From an uncultured Flammeovirgaceae bacterium (GTDB lineage Bacteria > Bacteroidota > Bacteroidia > Cytophagales > Cyclobacteriaceae): a stretch of 56,874 nucleotides of DNA. This document shows positions 1,910-36,957 of this stretch, piece by piece. Every line of letters starts with the position of its first letter. Position 1 is the stretch's first letter. Where the stretch lies: contig CAKZYJ010000075.1 of the NCBI GenBank assembly GCA_937884755.1, forward strand, positions 1-56,874, read 5' to 3'. Below the pieces are notes generated by a model. That model saw only the letters and a program-made list of their open reading frames with translations, was not told where the DNA came from and did no database searches. A program made the translations under genes and the position numbers.

Positions 1910-2542
1910 CTAGGGAACAAATATCAAAACGGAGGATAGGCTGATGGTTATACCGATGATGCAGCCAACCAGTACATCCATGGGTTTATGGGAGCCCAAG
2001 TAAAGTCTCGCCGACATTACCAGTCCACTCAGGAGCAGAAAGCCTACTAGTGGAAGTACCAGAAAGGCTTGAGGATACTTGGTACCTAATCCAATTATGA
2101 ATCCTACCAACCCAAAACTGCTAGCACTGTAAGCACTTACTTTCAAAAATAGATTGGCGATAGTCACTGCTACGATGATAGCTGTGGTGGCGGCCAAAAT
2201 TACACTTAGCACCGGGCTGGCCTCAAACTTATAAACAAACAGAAATGTGACAATCAGGTAAAAAATGCTGATGAAGAAGAAGGGGAGTATCCGTTCCTGC
2301 CGGGTAGGCATGGATATAATAGCTAGATAGTTAGCCCGGATTACCAGAAAGCGGGAAACTGTTACGTAGACTATCGGGATGAGGAAAGTGGTTAAGAAGA
2401 TAGCCAACAGTAAATAATCTGCGTTTCCTACACCTGGACGGACAACAATAGGAGCGTAGTAAAATAGCAGTGCAAATAAGTAGGTAGGCATCAGCAGAGG
2501 GTGCATCAGCACCGAGCACACAACCGCCAGTTTTCGTATCAT
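1910..2542 (-). CDS. PAP2-like integral membrane protein
   Basis: A 210-residue polytopic protein with about six hydrophobic segments. The C-terminal stretch SARLYLGSHKPMDVLVGCIIG resembles the last conserved motif of PAP2-type lipid phosphatases (SRxYLGxHxPxDVxxG). The first PAP2 motif (KxxxxxxRP) is not evident and the middle SGH motif is replaced by a serine-rich segment (SAYSASSFG), so phosphatase activity is doubtful. Its ATG shares one base with the rpoN stop (TAATG at 2540-2544), so translation is probably coupled to rpoN. Bacteroidetes commonly carry such short PAP2 relatives of unknown substrate. Confidence 0.7.
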   Translation of the reverse strand: MIRKLAVVCSVLMHPLLMPTYLFALLFYYAPIVVRPGVGNADYLLLAIFLTTFLIPIVYVTVSRFLVIRANYLAIISMPTRQERILPFFFISIFYLIVTFLFVYKFEASPVLSVILAATTAIIVAVTIANLFLKVSAYSASSFGLVGFIIGLGTKYPQAFLVLPLVGFLLLSGLVMSARLYLGSHKPMDVLVGCIIGITISLSSVLIFVP

Positions 2543-3996
2543 TAAAGTTCCTTTCTTAGCCGAGCCACCGGAATCTGTAGCTGCTCCCGATACTTCGCTA
2601 CCGTTCTACGGGCAATATTATAACCTTTATCCTTTAGTAGTTTTTCTAGCTTATCGTCTGAAAGCGGTTTGCGCTTATCTTCGTTATCAACCAGTTCTTT
2701 CAGATAGTTTTTCACCTCGCGGCTACTTACATCTTCACCCGAATCGGTAGCAATACCTTCCGAGAAGAAGTATTTAAGCGGATACGTGCCGTACTCGGTT
2801 TGTACCGACTTGCTGTTAGCTACCCGCGACACGGTAGAGATATCCATTCCAATTTCGGTGGCGATATCCTTCAGAATCATGGGGCGTAACTTGCTTTCAT
2901 CTCCCGTAAGGAAGAAATCGTACTGGTACTTCACGATGGTTTCCATGGTATTGAGCAAGGTGTTTTGCCGCTGCTTAATAGCATCAATAAACCACTTGGC
3001 TGAATCTAACTTCTGCTTTACAAACGAGACCTGTTCCTTCAGCCTTTTGTCTTTTTTGTCACTCTTATCGTAAGATTGCATCAAATCGGAATACGAGCGG
3101 CTGACCCTAAGCTCGGGGGCATTCTTTGAGTTCAAGGAAAGTTCTAATTTGCCATTATCGTTCGTCAGGATGTAGTCTGGTACTACGTATTGAGTTCGGG
3201 AAGCTAGGCCAGTATCTACTCCACCTGGTTTCGGATTCAGTTTGGTAATGATATTAATTGCCTCCCGCAGGGTGTTTTCGTCTACCCCCAGTTTGCGGCA
3301 AATCTTGTCAAAGTGTTTTTTAGTGAACTCCTTAAAGTTGTTCTCAATAATATCAATAGCCACCCGAGTATAACGATCCTGTTCCGGTTTTCTCTCGAGT
3401 TGCAGTAGCAGGCACTCCTGTAAGTTGCGCGCTCCAATGCCAGGAGGATCAAAATTATGAATCTTGGACAGCAGTTCTTCTAGTTCTTCTACATCCGTAT
3501 CAATATTCAGGGAAAACGCCAAGTCGTTTACGATGGCTTCCAGGTCGCGGCGAATGTATCCGTCGCTTTCAATGCTACCAATAAGTTGTAATCCGATTTG
3601 CTGGCGTCGGTCATCTAATTGAAGAAAATTGAGTTGAGTGAGTAGTTGCTCTACTAGCGAAACCGAAGTAGGCATCGGTAAATCTTTATCGTCCTCGTCT
3701 TGGTACGATCCGTCGCCTTGCATTTTATAACCGCTGAATTCATCCTCCGCCAGATAATCCTCTACACTGATCTCTTCCGAGTAGTCCTCCTGATCATTAT
3801 CGCCAAAATCATCTTCGGCCGTTACGGGCACTTCCTCTTCGTTATCCCGGCCTTCTTCCAAGGCAGGATTTACTTCCAATTCCTGTTCAATACGGGCTTC
3901 CAACTCAGCCGTAGGTATCTGCAACAGCTTGATAAATTGTATCTGCTGCGGCGATAATCGTTGACTAAGTGTTTGGTTTAAACCAAGCTTTTGCAT
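2542..3996 (-). CDS. rpoN: RNA polymerase sigma-54 factor
   Basis: The 484-residue product is a complete sigma-54. Region I at the N-terminus is glutamine/leucine rich (LGLNQTLSQRLSPQQIQFIK), region II is strongly acidic (about residues 50-105, many D/E), then come the core-binding region, the helix-turn-helix (DIATEIGMDISTVSRVAN), and at residues 462-471 the diagnostic RpoN box ARRTVAKYRE that reads the -24 element. It directs transcription from -24/-12 promoters with AAA+ activators; none of those activators is seen in this window. A possible -7 element TAAATTTG lies at 4038-4045 on the same strand. The downstream PAP2-like gene overlaps the stop by one base. Confidence 0.97.
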   Translation of the reverse strand: MQKLGLNQTLSQRLSPQQIQFIKLLQIPTAELEARIEQELEVNPALEEGRDNEEEVPVTAEDDFGDNDQEDYSEEISVEDYLAEDEFSGYKMQGDGSYQDEDDKDLPMPTSVSLVEQLLTQLNFLQLDDRRQQIGLQLIGSIESDGYIRRDLEAIVNDLAFSLNIDTDVEELEELLSKIHNFDPPGIGARNLQECLLLQLERKPEQDRYTRVAIDIIENNFKEFTKKHFDKICRKLGVDENTLREAINIITKLNPKPGGVDTGLASRTQYVVPDYILTNDNGKLELSLNSKNAPELRVSRSYSDLMQSYDKSDKKDKRLKEQVSFVKQKLDSAKWFIDAIKQRQNTLLNTMETIVKYQYDFFLTGDESKLRPMILKDIATEIGMDISTVSRVANSKSVQTEYGTYPLKYFFSEGIATDSGEDVSSREVKNYLKELVDNEDKRKPLSDDKLEKLLKDKGYNIARRTVAKYREQLQIPVARLRKEL

Positions 3997-4037
3997 GCTA
4001 TTTCTTCATGATAAAAATGTGTGCCCCCACTGAGGCG

Positions 4038-4045
4038 CAAATTTA
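4038..4045 (-). promoter_or_regulatory. Possible -7 box of the rpoN promoter
   Basis: The minus strand reads TAAATTTG, matching the Bacteroidetes -7 consensus TAnnTTTG, about 40 bases before the rpoN start. No TTG occurs 19-20 bases upstream, so the call rests on one box only. Confidence 0.3.
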
Positions 4046-4186
4046 TGATATTATCACAAATCTTTGTTAAAAAGACCAAATTATCGTTGTTTTACGGCCA
4101 GTTTTACTACATCCGTAAGGTATTAACTAACTTTCAAGCAGGGTGGTTCTAACCCTTTTAAAAAGCACATTTCTCAAGATAATAGT

Positions 4187-5647
4187 ATGCAAAAATCGCG
4201 GTGGAAAATCAAGCAGTTATTAGGAGATAACTTACCTCAGGAGGCCACTAGCCAACCGGTGGTAGTGAAAGGGTGGGTGCGCACTAAACGAGGCAGCAAG
4301 AATGTGAATTTTATTGCCTTGAATGATGGCTCTACCATCTATAATCTGCAAATAGTGGCTGACCCTGAGCAAGTTTCAGAAGCGGTGCTGGATCGTATTC
4401 ATACCGGGGCGGCACTGTCGGTAACTGGGACATTAGTAGAATCTCAGGGGCAAGGACAACGTTTTGAACTACAGGCTGAAACGATTGAAGTACTGGGAGA
4501 GGCTGACCCTGAGACATATCCATTACAACCTAAAAAGCATTCTTACGAGTTTTTGCGGGAGAAAGCCCATTTGCGTCCTCGTACCTCTACCTTTAGTGCA
4601 GTGTTTCGCTTACGGCATGCCATGACCTTTGCCATCCACAAGTACTTTCACGATCGAGGCTTCTATTGTTTGCATTCGCCTATTATAACCGGCTCGGATG
4701 CGGAGGGTGCGGGAGAGATGTTTCGAGTAACCACCCTCGATCCTAAGAATCCGCCTTTGACTGAAGAAGGTGAGGTGGATTTTCAGGAAGATTTTTTCGG
4801 CAAGGAAGCCAACCTGACCGTATCGGGCCAACTAGAGGCCGAACTGGGCGCGCTGGCACTGTCGGATGTATACACCTTTGGCCCTACCTTCCGGGCCGAA
4901 AACTCCAATACTTCCCGCCATCTGGCCGAGTTCTGGATGATTGAGCCGGAGATGGCTTTTTACGATCTGGACGATAACATGGATCTGGCGGAAGATTTTG
5001 TGAAGTACCTGGTGCAGTTTGCCCTGGACAACTATGCCGACGATCTGGATTTCCTGAACCAACGCCAACTGGACGAAGAGAAGAATAAAAAGAAAGAAGA
5101 GCGCAGCGATATGACGTTGTTGGAACGGTTGCAGTTTGTGGTAGATAGTGAGTTTGAGCGCATTACCTATACTGAGGCCATTAACATTTTGCGTAATTCT
5201 AAGCCGAATAAGAAAAAGAAATTCCAGTTTCTTATCGACCAATGGGGTGCTGATTTGCAATCGGAGCACGAGCGTTTTTTAGTAGAGAAGCACTTCAAGA
5301 AGCCAGTCATTCTGTATAACTACCCCAAAGAGATTAAGGCCTTTTACATGCGGCAAAACGAGGATGATAAAACTGTGGCGGCAATGGATGTGCTCTTTCC
5401 GGGGATTGGCGAGATCATCGGTGGCTCGCAGCGAGAGGAGCGGTTAAGCAATCTGCAACGGAGGATGGCTGAGATGGGGATTCCAGAAAAAGAGATGTGG
5501 TGGTACCTAGAAACCCGCAAGTTTGGTACGGTTCCTCACAGCGGCTTTGGTATTGGCTTTGAGCGGCTAATGATGTTCGTTACCGGTATGCAAAACATCC
5601 GCGATGTGATTCCTTTTCCCCGCACTCCCAAAAATGCTGAATTCTAA
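4187..5647 (+). CDS. asnS: Asparaginyl-tRNA synthetase
   Basis: A 486-residue class IIb aminoacyl-tRNA synthetase that charges tRNA-Asn. The N-terminal OB-fold anticodon-binding domain (about residues 20-110) contains the [19 protein letters not shown] segment. The catalytic core shows class II motif 2 ([20 protein letters not shown]) and motif 3 ([15 protein letters not shown]), ending with the usual [11 protein letters not shown] lysine/glutamate-rich insertion (about residues 285-310, NKKKEERSD) lies inside the catalytic domain, as is common in bacterial AsnRS. It is transcribed divergently from rpoN. The asparagine (not aspartate) assignment follows from the overall AsnRS-like length and the [13 protein letters not shown] ending. 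Confidence 0.96.
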
Positions 5648-5815
5648 ATATTGAGTGTTATTGTGTTTAAGTGTTATTGTGTTATAGAGTTTAGTGTTTG
5701 AAGTTGAGTCAGTTCTAGCTCTGAACTCCAAACACTGAACTCAGAACACAGAACACTGTTCCTTAGCAACCCGACCACCATAACACTCTATACAATCGCA
5801 CTATAACACCCAACT
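5648..5815. repeat. Spacer made of short-word degenerate inverted repeats
   Basis: The 168-bp gap between asnS and the helicase gene is built from repeated words: GTGTTATTGTG twice at the left end, then AGTTTAGTGTTTG, answered on the right by CCAAACACTGAACTC, GAACACAGAACAC and finally TAACACTC, CACTATAACACC. Left and right halves are imperfect reverse complements, so the transcript could fold into one long hairpin. No gene is visible in it. Confidence 0.7.
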
Positions 5816-7225
5816 ATGTCTAAGCCTTCGGAAGTAATTGCGGCTTATTTTCCTCATCAGCCCACCGAAGGTCAGCAGAAGCTATTTACCCTATTTGATC
5901 TTTTTCTGGCCCAAAAGGCCGACCGCAAAACCGCCTTGTTGCTTAAAGGATACGCCGGCACAGGAAAAACTTCGGTGGTAAGTGCACTAGTAAAAGCCCT
6001 GCCGGAATTCAAGCTAAAGCTAATGCTGCTGGCCCCCACTGGGCGGGCGGCTAAGGTAATGGCCAGCTACTCCGAGCGCAGTGCGTTTACTATTCATAAG
6101 ATTATCTACCAGCGTACCGCTGATCCGATCTCGGGTAGATTGCAGTTCTCCCGTCGCCGAAACTACCAGAAAAATACACTATATGTGGTAGATGAAGCTT
6201 CTATGCTCTCCAACGATGGGGGAAGTGGGCGTAACGGATTGCTATCGGATTTAATCGATTATGTGTTTGAGCAACCGACCAACCGACTGATGCTCATTGG
6301 CGATGCTGCCCAACTGCCCCCGGTGGGGCAAACGCTAAGCCAGGGGTTGAATGCAGAACATCTGGAACACTTGTACGGACTCGATATCTTTGAAACCGAA
6401 CTAACTGAGGTAATGCGGCAAGAGCAGAATTCGGGTATTCTGCGGAATGCCACTCAACTGCGGCAGCAACTTAGTCAGGAAGAATTTGGTATTCAGCTAC
6501 AAACGAGGGGTTTCTCGGATGTATACCGGATGGAAGGCCGTAAGCTGGAGGATGGCCTGCGCTATGCTTATGATAAATTTGGAAAAGATAATACAGCGGT
6601 AATCTGCCGCTCGAACCGGGCAGCGGTACAGTACAATCGCTTCATCCGGCATCAAATATTTTTCTACGACAATGAATTGGAAGTAGGCGATTACCTCATG
6701 ATCGTAAAGAATAATTATTTCTTCACCGAAGAAAATTCCGCCATTTCCTTTCTAGCCAATGGCGATTTTGTGGAGATCATCAAAGTGTTTAATCTGGAGG
6801 AGAAGCACGGATTACGCTTTGCCGACCTGGAATTACGCTTGCTGGACTATCCCGACCAGCCCGCCTTTGATGCTAAAATCATACTGGATGTATTGCACTC
6901 TCCTTCGGTGGCACTGGAGGAAGATAAATATCGGGAGTTGTTTCAGCAGGTGCTGGAAGAGTACGAAGATCAGGAAACCCGCAAGCAACAGCAGGAAGCA
7001 GTACGTAACGATTTGTACCTGAATGCTTTGCAGGTAAAGTACGCTTACGCACTCACCTGTCATAAATCGCAGGGCGGGCAGTGGGATGCGGTATTTGTAG
7101 ACCAAGGCTATCTGCCCGATGAACGGCTTACAATGGAATACATCCGCTGGCTATATACGGCCGTTACTCGCGCTAAACAGCAGCTATTTCTCATGAATTT
7201 CCGCGAAGAATTTTTTTCTGGATAA
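5816..7225 (+). CDS. RecD-like superfamily 1 DNA helicase
   Basis: A 469-residue ATP-dependent helicase of the AAA_30/RecD-Dda type. Motif I (Walker A) GYAGTGKTS lies at residues 45-53, motif Ia LLAPTGRAAKVM at about 71-82, motif II VVDEASM at 124-130, motif III GDAAQLPPVG near 160, and at the C-terminus the UvrD_C_2 elements LTCHKSQGGQWDAVFVDQG and YTAVTRAK. It lacks the N-terminal RecD domains and there is no recB/recC beside it, so it is probably a stand-alone 5'-3' helicase in repair or recombination, as in many Bacteroidetes. The two-frame start is clear: ATG directly after the repeat-rich spacer. Confidence 0.88.
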   Translation: MSKPSEVIAAYFPHQPTEGQQKLFTLFDLFLAQKADRKTALLLKGYAGTGKTSVVSALVKALPEFKLKLMLLAPTGRAAKVMASYSERSAFTIHKIIYQRTADPISGRLQFSRRRNYQKNTLYVVDEASMLSNDGGSGRNGLLSDLIDYVFEQPTNRLMLIGDAAQLPPVGQTLSQGLNAEHLEHLYGLDIFETELTEVMRQEQNSGILRNATQLRQQLSQEEFGIQLQTRGFSDVYRMEGRKLEDGLRYAYDKFGKDNTAVICRSNRAAVQYNRFIRHQIFFYDNELEVGDYLMIVKNNYFFTEENSAISFLANGDFVEIIKVFNLEEKHGLRFADLELRLLDYPDQPAFDAKIILDVLHSPSVALEEDKYRELFQQVLEEYEDQETRKQQQEAVRNDLYLNALQVKYAYALTCHKSQGGQWDAVFVDQGYLPDERLTMEYIRWLYTAVTRAKQQLFLMNFREEFFSG

Positions 7226-22220: not shown

Positions 22221-22261
22221 GGCATCTCTGATACTCACATGTACCACCTCTATACTAGAAC

Positions 22262-22390
22262 GTTAGTGGTATGTTCATTTCTTTTGTCTTGAAACAAAAG
22301 AAACGGAACCAAAGAAAAATTCAAGAAAGCTCAAAGCTTCCCCCCTAAGAGCTGACGCACACCCCGCTGAACTTTCGGGCCTACGCACCG
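22262..22390 (+). repeat. Left arm of 129-bp inverted repeat flanking the Argonaute-Sir2 cassette
   Basis: The reverse complement of this segment aligns without gaps to 25452-25580 with about seven mismatches in 129 positions. It contains a perfect 10-bp hairpin, TTTCTTTTGT at 22278-22287 with ACAAAAGAAA at 22294-22303. It ends 10 bases from the Sir2 stop codon. Confidence 0.92.
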
Positions 22391-22400
22391 GACTGAAAAA

Positions 22401-23474
22401 TTAGAACGGTAAACTTTCATCATCAGGGAAAAGCTGATTTAAACGAGCTATATCAAAGAATTCGTTGAAGAAATCACTTGCCGGACCTATTGATACTTCA
22501 ATATTACTTCCACTTGCAATATCTATCTTATCTTTTATGAATGTAACTTCATCTTCATCGTCTCCAGAATATCTGTTTACTAATAACTTTTTATTATCAT
22601 CTGTCTCTAGACCAAATTTAATTATATCATTTATATGGGCATCCCAAAAGCCATAGCCACATACGATTATTAGTTTTGCATCTAGTATATGTTGCCTAAA
22701 TTCATAAATAAAGAATAAGAAAGGGTCATAATGCCTAACTTTTTGACGAGTGCCGAAGATAATTTCATGTTTCCTAATTCCCATTATTGAACTGTGTATC
22801 AGTTTTTGTTCTTCGTTTCGTTCCCAGTCAATTGAACCATGCATCTTGTAGAGGTATATATCCGGTTCTTTTTTTTCACTAGAGGTACTAAATCGCTGCC
22901 AATCCCAAGAGTGGTTATGCTCACTTTCGTCACCAAACCCTCTCTCTATCAAACATTGTATGTGGTTTCCCTTATTCTCGAAATTACGACATACTTGCTC
23001 TATACAAAGGTCATAGTTCAGAGTAAAGACATTTATAGGGTTGTTATAACTCTTCTGAAGTAACGCTAAATTACGATAGTAATGGGCATCTACTTGGTTT
23101 TTTAAATCAACCCACTCTCTCAATTTGCTAATAATCTTATCCCTAAAATCTCTAACGAATCCAGCAGTGTACCCAACTTTTTCGGTAAACTCTATCCAAC
23201 TTAGTTGAAAAGGTGTTAGTGGATGTTTTTTCTCTAATAACTGAAGTAATTCATCAAGAATGTTTACTAAATCCTCTATATTGAGCGTTTGTTCATGTGT
23301 CTTTTCAATTTGCTCTTTAATGAAGAAGTATAACCCATAATATTCCTTCCAAGAACCACTTAGTTCCTCCTCAATCTTTTCTATCATCTCAGATGTTATT
23401 AATATACCTGCTTCCTGACTAGCTCCTGCACCTAATAATATGATTATATCGTTTTTTTGAAGTTGATACGCCAT
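22401..23474 (-). CDS. Sir2-like (SIR2_2) NADase-type effector of an Argonaute system
   Basis: A 357-residue Sir2-family protein of the antiphage type. Visible motifs: NAD-binding GAGAS at residues 15-19, TLNYD at 151-155, catalytic His212 in MHGSIDW, and GYGFWDAHIND at 273-283. All hallmark residues are intact. Known relatives (Thoeris ThsA, DSR, short-Argonaute-associated Sir2) hydrolyse NAD+ and stop growth of infected cells; that activity is inferred here. In usual short-Argonaute systems Sir2 is fused to an APAZ domain; this protein ends about 75 residues after the last Sir2 motif, leaving no room for APAZ. It follows the Argonaute gene by 4 bases. The region is visibly AT-rich compared with neighbours. 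Confidence 0.88.
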   Translation of the reverse strand: MAYQLQKNDIIILLGAGASQEAGILITSEMIEKIEEELSGSWKEYYGLYFFIKEQIEKTHEQTLNIEDLVNILDELLQLLEKKHPLTPFQLSWIEFTEKVGYTAGFVRDFRDKIISKLREWVDLKNQVDAHYYRNLALLQKSYNNPINVFTLNYDLCIEQVCRNFENKGNHIQCLIERGFGDESEHNHSWDWQRFSTSSEKKEPDIYLYKMHGSIDWERNEEQKLIHSSIMGIRKHEIIFGTRQKVRHYDPFLFFIYEFRQHILDAKLIIVCGYGFWDAHINDIIKFGLETDDNKKLLVNRYSGDDEDEVTFIKDKIDIASGSNIEVSIGPASDFFNEFFDIARLNQLFPDDESLPF

Positions 23475-23478
23475 TGCA

Positions 23479-25302
23479 CTATAGGAACCAGGGTTCAGAA
23501 TTTTCTATTTCAATATCCTTCATGTCACGATTTTTAAATTCACGAATAAAATCTGACACTAAACGACAATAGTAAATTGAAACGGGTAGTGATTTAGCGT
23601 TAAACCCTCTCCAGTTTGCACCAGATAAATTGATAATGTCTTGAATGTAATTTTTCAATATTGTCTCATCTAACTGATTGTTACTGTAATGAAGTTTGAT
23701 GTATGTAGGGCCTGAATACCTTTTTTGGGGTTTTGTATCGTGATACTGAAGTCCTTCAAACCAAACTAAAAACTCAGTGTTAGAAATTTTGACGCAAGAA
23801 CTTTCGTAAGGCGTAAGACTATTCATTGCTTTCTGATAGCCAAAAAACTTGTTATCGGTATTAATTCTAAGCACCAAGAATTCGAGTTTGCCAGACGAAT
23901 ATTCCTCTAGAATACTCTTTATCTTTTCTAACTCTTCGCGTTTAACTTTGAAAGGGGTATGAATAGCAATCTTGTCGTATTCGCTGGAGTATTCACTTAT
24001 AATGTTTTTTAAAGTATCTCCTAGTTTTGTCAGGTATGTTTCTTGTTCTGAATCTTCACTAATAACTTTAAGTGCTTTGTAAAGACCTGAAGAGTCTATC
24101 AAAATAGAATATGCAAAGTATCTCTCATCCTGAGACATTGATTGACTTAATCCTATTATTAAACATTTTTCATTTCTTGGTTTAACCTTCCATGGCTTTC
24201 CACCTAGCTTGGCAAAAATTTGAAGGGCAGTATTACCCATAGAATATTTATTTCTAAGTATTTCATAGCTTAGAAATTGAGTGGCTATTTGATTTGAGGT
24301 AAACTTGTGCTTTATCTTATAGTACAAATCATCATTATCTCCTTTCTTTCTTAAAAGAAAAATTACGATTTTTCTGGAATTTAGAGGTAATTGGTTCAAT
24401 TCTTCAGTTATGGAACTGATAGTACCGTCATCAATAGTATCAGCTCGATAAGACTTAAATTGAAAATCAAATTTGTAATCTTCATTTAATTTTTCCTCAA
24501 GACGTGGATAAAAATCTTTAATGAGATTAACTTCTTCTTTTCTGTAGAGAAAATATATATATGCATGTTCTGAAAAGCTTTCATAAGGCCCATATGTTTT
24601 AATACTATACTGTGATGTTGTCTCAGTATCATCCCCAACTATGTAAGTCTTCTTCTCTAAATAATCAACAGGCAGCAGTTTGTTTGACTCAAAGTCAAGA
24701 TCTGTTTCTAAAAATACACGTTCATAATATTTTTTTGCAAATTTTCTGATTTGAGCATAACGATCAGCATAGAAGTTTGTATTCGCTCTTCCTTTTTCAT
24801 TTAGACTCAAACTGAGCTTTTGTACAACTCTATTAGAAGGTTGATGGTCAGCTCCTAAGAAGCCAAAATCAATTAAAAATCCAAATTCCTGGGAGACATC
24901 TAAAAAATACGGCTCAACCCAGACAATCTGCTTTCCTTCCCGATATTGATCATTTACGAAAGCTATTCTTCTATATTTTCCTTTTCCATATTCAAAAAAA
25001 TCACCACTGTTGAGCTTTGATTTGCAGCTAGCGAGTAATTGATTGTAAATATAGTCGTGAGTTAAGTATCGGTTTTCATCAATCGTAACCTGATATTCCA
25101 GAAATCCCTCTATACTGTCATAACTAACCCAGTACTTCGAATATACATTATTACTAAACTTTAAACTTCTTTCCGATACAGAATTATCAAAGTTCTCTTT
25201 GCGACTCCCAGGTTCCTTTTTTTTACGATAGACTATAAAACTGAAATGTTGATTTTTTAAAGGAGAAAAATTAAGAGCTATGTAGTTATGATTTTCTTCC
25301 AT
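23479..25302 (-). CDS. Prokaryotic Argonaute, catalytically inactive, with extended N-terminal region
   Basis: A 607-residue Argonaute. The MID domain (about 245-375) has the guide 5'-phosphate pocket residues: Tyr327/328-x-Lys region (LYYKIKHKF), Gln342 in IATQFLSYE, and Lys365 in LQIFAKLGGKPW. PIWI spans about 376-607, with C-terminal NLSGANWRGFNAKSLPVSIY. Slicer residues are missing: the expected GID is GLS (384-386) and the second acidic site is IHTPFK (447-452). Residues 1-245 would correspond to N/L1/L2 (APAZ-like) and no clear PAZ is seen, so it is longer than short pAgos (about 450-500) and shorter than long ones (about 700+). First gene of the pair. I infer a guide-dependent sensor for the Sir2 effector. 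Confidence 0.85.
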   Translation of the reverse strand: MEENHNYIALNFSPLKNQHFSFIVYRKKKEPGSRKENFDNSVSERSLKFSNNVYSKYWVSYDSIEGFLEYQVTIDENRYLTHDYIYNQLLASCKSKLNSGDFFEYGKGKYRRIAFVNDQYREGKQIVWVEPYFLDVSQEFGFLIDFGFLGADHQPSNRVVQKLSLSLNEKGRANTNFYADRYAQIRKFAKKYYERVFLETDLDFESNKLLPVDYLEKKTYIVGDDTETTSQYSIKTYGPYESFSEHAYIYFLYRKEEVNLIKDFYPRLEEKLNEDYKFDFQFKSYRADTIDDGTISSITEELNQLPLNSRKIVIFLLRKKGDNDDLYYKIKHKFTSNQIATQFLSYEILRNKYSMGNTALQIFAKLGGKPWKVKPRNEKCLIIGLSQSMSQDERYFAYSILIDSSGLYKALKVISEDSEQETYLTKLGDTLKNIISEYSSEYDKIAIHTPFKVKREELEKIKSILEEYSSGKLEFLVLRINTDNKFFGYQKAMNSLTPYESSCVKISNTEFLVWFEGLQYHDTKPQKRYSGPTYIKLHYSNNQLDETILKNYIQDIINLSGANWRGFNAKSLPVSIYYCRLVSDFIREFKNRDMKDIEIENSEPWFL

Positions 25303-25451: not shown

Positions 25452-25580
25452 CGGTGCGTAGGCCTGAAAGTTCAGCGGGGTGTGCGCTAGCTCATCGCGG
25501 GGAAGCTTTGAGCTTTCTTGAATTTTTCTTTGGTTCTGTTTCTTTTGTTTCAAGACAAAAGAAATGAACATACCACTAAC
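25452..25580 (-). repeat. Right arm of 129-bp inverted repeat flanking the Argonaute-Sir2 cassette
   Basis: Partner of 22262-22390; about 122 of 129 positions identical in inverted orientation, most differences clustered near 25486-25498. Contains the same hairpin, TTTCTTTTGT at 25539-25548 with ACAAAAGAAA at 25555-25564. Confidence 0.92.
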
Positions 25581-25644
25581 TTACGAGCTTATAGGTAGCA
25601 CTTTTGAGCAATTACAAGTAGAGCACAATCAGCAGCATCAATGT

Positions 25645-28257: not shown

Positions 28258-28351
28258 TTAAGGGGAGAGGTAATTGTGTGGTAGGTATGTTTATAGCGAT
28301 TGTTATACCATCTCGTATCGGAAAAGGCACACCCATTGTAGCAGTGAGGCT

Positions 28352-28639
28352 ATGCAAAGAGGCGGTTGTGTATACATTGTATCAAACAAGAGAAGAACGG
28401 TTTACTACATCGGAGTTACGGCTGATCTGATGCGCAGAATACGGGAGCATAAGTCCGGCGAGGGTTCAGCGTTCACCAAGAAATACAATTGTACTGACCT
28501 CATCTACTATGAATCATTTCTGCGCATAGACGAAGCCATTGCCCGAGAGAAACGGCTTAAGAAATGGAAGCGAGCGTGGAAGGAAGAGCTGATCAAAAAG
28601 TTGAATCCGGATTTGAGAGACCTTTATCCGGAAATCTGA
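28352..28639 (+). CDS. GIY-YIG domain protein (UPF0213-like)
   Basis: A 95-residue single GIY-YIG nuclease domain. The family signature appears as VYIVSNKRRTVYYIGVTADL with VYI/YIG in the places of GIY and YIG, the catalytic-type Arg in RRIREHKSG, and Glu in IDEAIAREKRLKKWKR. Start chosen at 28352 because MQRGGCVYIVSN begins the domain; an upstream in-frame start at 28274 would add 26 residues reading into the palindromic repeat. Such small proteins are widespread in Bacteroidetes; cellular role unclear. Confidence 0.82.
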   Translation: MQRGGCVYIVSNKRRTVYYIGVTADLMRRIREHKSGEGSAFTKKYNCTDLIYYESFLRIDEAIAREKRLKKWKRAWKEELIKKLNPDLRDLYPEI

Positions 28640-36609: not shown

Positions 36610-36957
36610 TTAAAGTTCACTTTTTCCTAATATTTTGTTGATGTCCCTTTCTAAAACAGGAAGATGGTTCTTAATAATTTGCCAAACTTCTTCTGCATCA
36701 ACTCCAAAGTAATTGTGAGCTACAATATTGCGGAAGTCTTTGATTTTTGTCCACGGTACCTGACCGTATTGATTTTTTAGCTCTTCGCTCAACTTGGCAA
36801 CTGACTCTCCAATGATTAAGAAGTTCATCAAAACAGCATCAAATGTCTTCACATCATTGTATAGCGAATTAGCACTTTCTAGTTTATCAACAAAGCTTTG
36901 AATTTTTGTACAGCTATCAAGAATAGCTAGTAGGTTACCTTTGTCTTTTTCAGACAT
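36610..36957 (-). CDS. hepT: HepT-like toxin (HEPN ribonuclease)
   Basis: A 115-residue HEPN (DUF86) protein. The catalytic Rx4HxY motif is intact: Arg76, His81, Tyr83 in FRNIVAHNYF. In known HepT/MntA pairs the toxin is a ribonuclease that is silenced when MntA adds AMP to the tyrosine of this motif; that chemistry is inferred. It overlaps the MntA-like gene by 8 bases. The segment is AT-rich. Confidence 0.88.
   Translation of the reverse strand: MSEKDKGNLLAILDSCTKIQSFVDKLESANSLYNDVKTFDAVLMNFLIIGESVAKLSEELKNQYGQVPWTKIKDFRNIVAHNYFGVDAEEVWQIIKNHLPVLERDINKILGKSEL

Follow-up and report, generated by a model that had tools for sequence, protein, structure and literature searches.

A PAZ-less single-chain long-B Argonaute paired with a Sir2 protein in an uncultured Flammeovirgaceae bacterium, a probable BPAS-type system

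Long-B prokaryotic Argonautes (pAgos) with a Sir2_2-domain protein encoded downstream were named BPAS by Song et al. in 2023 (PMC10620215). In GbBPAS, the Sir2 protein alone is toxic and the Argonaute suppresses this toxicity; the two proteins co-purify, and a plasmid triggers a loss of nicotinamide adenine dinucleotide (NAD+) that the N155A mutation abolishes (PMC10620215). Single-chain long-B pAgos with a reduced PAZ domain or none were described in 2024, with EbAgo of Epilithonimonas bovis among the single-chain examples, and ThsA-like Sir2 genes were reported downstream of long-B pAgos (PMC10954474). Truncated long pAgos without PAZ, and a SIR2 orthogroup, og_44, had already appeared in a 2018 survey (PMC6299218). 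In SPARSA, NADase activity needs an N142/H186 dyad (PMC10781750). Here we describe an Argonaute–Sir2 gene pair in a 56,874-nucleotide stretch of DNA (contig CAKZYJ010000075.1, the window) from an uncultured Flammeovirgaceae bacterium. The pair is very probably a BPAS-type system from a clade with PAZ-less single-chain Argonautes, in which, by analogy with the studied systems, recognition of a target by the guide would trigger NAD+ hydrolysis by Sir2. Among the papers listed by our searches of the open-licence literature, a scope that leaves out all bioRxiv preprints and most subscription papers, we found no work on the structure or function of a PAZ-less BPAS pair.

Both reading frames are intact and lie on the minus strand, the Argonaute gene first and the Sir2 gene 4 nt downstream (Table 1). 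The Argonaute matches the Pfam family Piwi (E 4e-18), and the 617-position PADLOC model pAgo_II covers its residues 7–607 (E 2e-175). The Sir2 protein matches SIR2_2 (PF13289; E 6e-12) and is covered over residues 4–357 by the PADLOC model Aga_SIR2 (E 5e-90). Because of these Pfam and PADLOC matches, the latter near full length, the two open reading frames (ORFs) are no chance pair. In BPAS, too, the SIR2_2-domain protein is a separate one, encoded immediately after the Argonaute.

Table 1. Coordinates of the gene pair, the domains of its Argonaute and the flanking repeats in the window
Feature	Position	Strand	Description
Argonaute gene	23479..25302	(-)	Predicted inactive PAZ-less single-chain long-B Argonaute, 607 aa, ATG start
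Argonaute N-L1-L2 part, residues 1-232	24607..25302	(-)	AlphaFold2 model, Foldseek match to RsAgo, alignment count
Argonaute MID-PIWI, residues 233-607	23482..24606	(-)	Pocket Y327/K331/Q342/K365, C-terminal PWFL, slicer residues absent at the positions checked
Sir2-type effector gene	22401..23474	(-)	Probable NADase, 357 aa, ATG start, without APAZ; N153 and H212 at catalytic positions
Left arm of inverted repeat	22234..22390	(+)	157 nt, 89% complementary to the right arm
Right arm of inverted repeat	25452..25608	(-)	157 nt, on the other side of the gene pair

We modelled the Argonaute with AlphaFold2 from an alignment of 50 sequences, namely the window and 49 related loci from named genomes (L057, L065, L075, L085, L087, L088, L093, L094 and L098 were left out), and obtained a predicted local distance difference test score (pLDDT) of 89.9 and a predicted template-modelling score (pTM) of 0.88. 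Foldseek returned AfAgo (chain A of 8ok9, the AfAgo/AfAgo-N entry) and RsAgo as the best matches to the model. By sequence, the best matches among solved structures were AfAgo, EcAgo and RsAgo, all classed as long-B in the literature. From the order of strands and helices in the model and the match to RsAgo, we read residues 1–232 as N-L1-L2, with the L1 and L2 boundaries likewise our reading of the model. The slot for PAZ, bounded by F148 in the final strand of L1 and Y178 in the long helix of L2, measures 30–37 residues in all 50 sequences and is therefore too small for a PAZ domain. The modelled window Argonaute is thus a single chain of N-L1-L2 and MID-PIWI with neither PAZ nor a PAZ remnant. 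It lacks the combination of PAZ and catalytic tetrad that marks long-A pAgos, and its roughly 232 additional residues before MID distinguish it from the short, MID-PIWI-only Argonautes of SPARSA.

Residues Y327, K331, Q342 and K365 of the MID domain are identical in all 50 sequences, the window included. A phmmer alignment places them on Y123, K127, Q137 and K163 of AfAgo, which we take to be its 5'-phosphate pocket. The C-terminal WFL aligns with the last residues of AfAgo and is found in 47 of the 50 sequences, with WFI in 3. For the PIWI domain, we located the presumed catalytic positions from known motifs. Column 386 is glycine, serine or alanine and column 450 is proline, threonine or serine throughout (50/50 each), and column 449 is threonine, leucine, valine, alanine or serine in 48/50, the remaining 2 not being shown. 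Non-acidic residues at the two of four catalytic positions that were assessed predict a catalytically inactive PIWI domain, as is characteristic of BPAS.

The Sir2 protein contains the motifs GAGAS (residues 15–19), TLNYD (151–155), H212 and GYGFWDAH (273–280). Across 53 aligned sequences, comprising the window and 52 named loci (L049, L075, L085, L088, L093 and L094 were left out), G15, N153, D155, H212, G273, Y274 and D278 are invariant. A model built from this alignment (pLDDT 88.7) has its best fold matches in the SIR2 protein of SIR2-HerA (Nezha), whose partner is a HerA ATPase instead of an Argonaute; the SPARSA Sir2 ranks 35th and ThsA 36th. Compared with the ThsA-like label given to long-B partners (PMC10954474), this ranking of modelled folds is a difference of degree. 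A profile of the family aligned with four SPARSA-type proteins over the Sir2 domain only, residues 4–294 (probability 80%, E 1.4e-5), with N153 on their N146 and H212 on their H190. The region past residue 294 is modelled as short strands and helices. With 357 residues and an alignment that stops at 294, within the Sir2 domain, the protein does not have the Sir2–APAZ fusion of SPARSA. A candidate C-terminal PF motif, present at first in 3 of 4 sequences, was dropped because it was found in only 18/53.

Much of this had been anticipated in the original prediction, made from the sequence alone: two genes 4 nt apart, an intact MID guide pocket, slicer residues absent (as we find at the two catalytic positions checked), no clear PAZ, and a Sir2 protein with all NADase-type motifs and no APAZ. 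In the AlphaFold2 model, residues 1–245 likewise do not fold as in a PAZ-containing long-A Argonaute. The prediction's view that the division of domains is unusual did not hold, as the layout is that of an ordinary BPAS and PAZ-less single-chain long-B pAgos are already in print (PMC10954474). Close homologues with the same layout have in substance been described, in two papers (PMC10620215, PMC10954474) and in the 617-position PADLOC model.

The pair shares with BPAS (GbBPAS, and og_44 SIR2_2 proteins with long-B pAgos) a long-B Argonaute encoded first, a separate downstream Sir2_2-domain protein without APAZ, and, in the window and GbBPAS, the catalytic asparagine of the Sir2 motif. The window Argonaute is PAZ-less, in which it would differ from GbAgo if the latter keeps a reduced PAZ. 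The system of E. bovis DSM 19482 (L071) belongs to the clade of the window and has a single-chain Argonaute of 636 aa, no room for PAZ by residue count and a downstream Sir2 gene, but its Argonaute is 33% identical to that of the window. L071 and the published EbAgo (WP_076783222.1) come from the same species and may be the same sequence. AfAgo with AfAgo-N, a split PAZ-less long-B pAgo, provides the best fold and sequence match, the same MID pocket residues and the WFL C terminus, but consists of two chains, and the downstream Af1317 is an alpha-helical effector type and not a Sir2 protein (PMC10954474).

A single scan of the collection of named genomes, run with a four-row alignment through two peptide patterns and therefore missing relatives that lack these patterns, yielded 58 loci. 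They are not all independent: L061 matches L002 and L075 matches L026 in length and score, and the members of L062/L094, L085/L096 and L087/L088 nearly duplicate each other. Of the 58 loci, 57 have a Sir2 match immediately downstream of the Argonaute, and in the 58th (L075) the contig ends within the Argonaute gene. In 55 loci the Sir2 ORF has 333–412 aa, while shortened ORFs of 82 aa and 258 aa occur in L049 and L093, respectively. Both genes are single closed ORFs in 52/58, counting the short Sir2 of L049. As mechanically called ORFs with uncurated starts, the Argonautes measure 595–712 aa, and the Sir2 start falls between -50 and +18 nt from the Argonaute stop. PADLOC pAgo_II matches 50/50 Argonaute sequences and Aga_SIR2 53/53 Sir2 sequences at E 1e-10 or better. 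The two genes are co-inherited: Argonaute and Sir2 distances correlate with r = 0.909 over 49 loci including the window, a value reached in 0/2000 permutations.

The hosts belong to Bacteroidota, Ignavibacteriota, Acidobacteriota, Chloroflexota, Bacillota, Pseudomonadota, Myxococcota, Nitrospirota and several candidate phyla, together with one archaeon. The window pair is an additional member of this widespread family, which is already described. Its closest relative is L042 (Pyrinomonadaceae), with 52% identity for the Argonaute and 56% for Sir2. In a sample of 291 genomes from the order of the window, 16 match pAgo_II at E 1e-30 or better, and three of these matches span nearly the whole model: the window, L025 and L026, the last being cut by a contig end. 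In a sample of the phylum, 23/395 genomes match the window Argonaute, its own included, nearly all of them weakly. Relatives are found in seven plasmid records, and in 4 of these the match covers at least 80% of the query. Among viral sequences, 45 IMG/VR stretches fit a pattern and 0 were confirmed as relatives, and phage records gave no match. Three related loci have Argonaute genes interrupted by other DNA (L087:231-6275, L088:215-6275 and L093:2405-5897). In L087 and L088, which are near-identical Anoxybacillus loci, the translations of the inserted ORFs resemble a metal-transporting ATPase and an ArsR-type regulator; in L093 (Entotheonella), the interrupting ORF, again judged from translations, occurs twice in the locus.

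We built a midpoint-rooted tree of 89 MID-PIWI sequences, which proves no direction and includes no known long-A sequence. L004, L020, L021, L023, L087, L093, L176, L177, L179 and L180 were left out, and the source list already lacked L001, L002, L026, L027, L032, L035, L040, L041, L075, L098 and L178. A total of 56 compact, Sir2-paired Argonautes, including those of the window and L071, fall on one side of a branch with support of 100/100, a unity that is partly the product of selection because the clade of the window itself served as the query for collecting them. By this tree, the window pair belongs to a clade whose Argonautes lack PAZ and are paired with Sir2, and whose hosts range over many bacterial phyla and include one archaeon; the MID pocket, the WFL end and the Sir2 N/H dyad are conserved features open to testing. 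The 759-aa Argonaute of L003, which also has a Sir2 partner, is weakly placed (86/40) beside the compact set; if this placement holds, a lineage already paired with Sir2 may have lost PAZ.

The original prediction had proposed that the pair may be an intermediate or a separate subtype of guide-triggered NAD+ depletion. In evolutionary terms, the pair would then stand midway between SPARSA and long-B systems, or have arisen from SPARSA as a subtype of its own. It does share with SPARSA a NADase-type Sir2 partner with the N/H dyad, the absence of PAZ and an inactive-looking PIWI domain (PMC10781750), but we consider such an origin very improbable. Five SPARSA-type sequences, gathered with a PADLOC model, form a clade of their own, whose branch is 3.1 changes per column long, and are joined to nine further long-B sequences (98/94), apart from the window clade. 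As the window lies within the Sir2-paired clade (100/100) and not between long-B and SPARSA-type sequences, it is not an intermediate; this position and the best solved-structure matches (AfAgo, EcAgo and RsAgo) both identify its Argonaute as long-B. Gene order and partition are also those of BPAS, whereas SPARSA has Sir2 fused to APAZ, encoded in L171–L173 upstream of a 465–474-aa Argonaute. The alignment of the Sir2 profile with the four SPARSA-type Sir2-APAZ proteins ends at residue 294, and the Argonaute profile had no real match in these proteins. A structural kinship with APAZ may exist even without a sequence match, because APAZ is treated as the counterpart of N-L1-L2 (PMC10954474).

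For a BPAS-type system, the steps can be proposed from GbBPAS, AfAgo, RsAgo and SPARSA, which suggest the probable type of guide and target, the formation of a complex, NAD+ depletion and abortive infection. The Argonaute would load a small 5'-phosphorylated guide, probably RNA as in the inactive pAgos studied so far, and the Argonaute–guide complex would keep Sir2 inactive. Pairing with complementary invader DNA would then release or rearrange Sir2, which would hydrolyse NAD+, so that the infected cell stops growing or dies. Guide-triggered NAD+ depletion, as originally predicted, is on this analogy probable. A different chemistry or substrate for the Sir2 protein, for example deacylation or cleavage of nucleic acids, seems to us decidedly unlikely. 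Cellular deacylases (CobB and SIRT2) do occur lower in the list of fold matches, and the 2018 survey took pAgo-linked SIR2 proteins to be nucleases (PMC6299218). However, N153 and H212, which are invariant in 53/53 sequences, align with the N/H positions of SPARSA-type proteins that are required in SPARSA (PMC10781750), and GbBPAS depletes NAD+ (PMC10620215). There is a small chance that the pair is a decaying or silent passenger and not a working defence: it is marked as acquired by its low guanine-plus-cytosine (GC) content and flanking repeats, and three related loci have interrupted Argonaute genes, but both genes of the window pair are uninterrupted and have retained their motif residues. 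Several points weigh against the BPAS-type reading itself. The support for the window pair and for the loci found to be PAZ-less consists of sequence and predicted structure; the NAD+ data come from GbBPAS, whose GbAgo may lie outside the window clade. In only 30/49 loci do the Argonaute and the Sir2 protein have the same locus as nearest neighbour. Finally, the Sir2 fold is nearer to SIR2-HerA than to ThsA or SPARSA, so its activation may differ. At about 2.9 kb, the compact two-protein system lends itself to biochemical work on the way in which an Argonaute keeps hold of a Sir2 effector and lets it go.

The host genome is an 8.35-Mb draft of 528 contigs (97.8% complete, 3.7% contaminated). 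Between the repeat arms that flank the pair, the GC content is 0.327, compared with 0.455 for the window, and the five lowest-GC stretches of 2.9 kb (taken in 100-base steps) all begin at 22301–22701. Gene pairs are lower in GC than their flanks in 52/52 intact named loci, some by very little. The draft contains five clear copies of the repeat: the two in the window, an inverted pair on contig 53 and a single copy on contig 11. Two pattern searches gave 4 and 6 places, the sixth being on contig 501 with two mismatches. The inverted pair on contig 53 (6975–9272; L105:2476-4773) encloses one long ORF, with a GC content of 0.353 between the arms. The encoded 571-aa protein contains AAA_15 and OLD-like TOPRIM domains and matches the PADLOC models Old (E 1e-53) and GajA (E 7e-45). 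A rough calculation by hand puts the probability of two such close pairs, given five independent random sites in 8.35 Mb, at the order of 1e-5; local inverted duplication would break the independence that this assumes.

Weaker copies of the repeat occur in 13 other genomes of the 291 (two candidates were scored per genome). In the stretches read near such copies, PADLOC gave one weak match among 9 proteins and 0 among 5, with no clear link to defence cargo. Since these copies show no clear tie to defence genes in the stretches read, the repeat may simply be a common intergenic element at the edges of insertions. In one other genome of the order, five related copies lie within 19 kb among low-GC genes, several of them without a Pfam match (L137:3578-15989). 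In another locus (L139:6351-13460), a copy neighbours a low-GC gene cluster that includes a tyrosine recombinase (PF00589, 490 aa) and companion genes, which we take to be possibly a Tn554-like set.

We rejected the idea that members of the family are generally flanked by repeats: of the 58 named loci, 54 have 100 or more flanking bases on each side, and among these there were 8 matching pairs. Six of the 8 are at least 50 bases long (L043, L061, L087, L088, L095 and L099), all are on the same strand, and that of L043 falls inside two look-alike ORFs. No inverted pair like that of the window was found within 2.5 kb among the 54 loci. We also rejected the window repeat as an integron attC site, since its arms are inverted, one arm forms no single hairpin (z -1.48; 17/200 shuffles fold as well), and the best match to an integron integrase in the host genome scores 81 bits against a cut-off of 265.

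In L061 (Melioribacteraceae SCALA702, 2425–5860), the gene pair sits between direct repeats of about 128 bp that are 91% identical, and a third copy precedes the gene ahead of the pair. The first and last copies each fold into one long hairpin on both the top and the bottom strand, in a fold computed with parameters that may not have been those for DNA. The L061 genome has at least 40 copies of the repeat (all 40 scored out of 179 candidates) and an integron integrase that scores 431 bits against a curated cut-off of 265. Judged from these sequence features, the L061 pair looks like an integron cassette with attC-like repeats. Our literature search found no papers joining integrons, Argonaute, Sir2 and attC.

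The inverted repeats may have helped the window pair to move. More speculatively, and on balance we doubt it, compact PAZ-less BPAS pairs could be self-contained defence cassettes, captured by an integron in L061 and, in the host of the window, by an inverted-repeat element that frames one defence unit at a time, the Argonaute–Sir2 pair in the window and the OLD/GajA-like gene on contig 53. If this were true, the inverted repeats would mark the termini of a small mobile unit of a new type that carries defence genes. The mobile-element setting of the pair deserves a separate look. Flanking repeats and an apparent integron location bear on how defence genes shuffle between unrelated hosts. Elsewhere in the window, a small ORF of 121 aa with a GIY-YIG domain lies near the locus (28274–28639), and a gene for a HepT-like ribonuclease is found at 36610–36957 (PF01934, E 2e-26).

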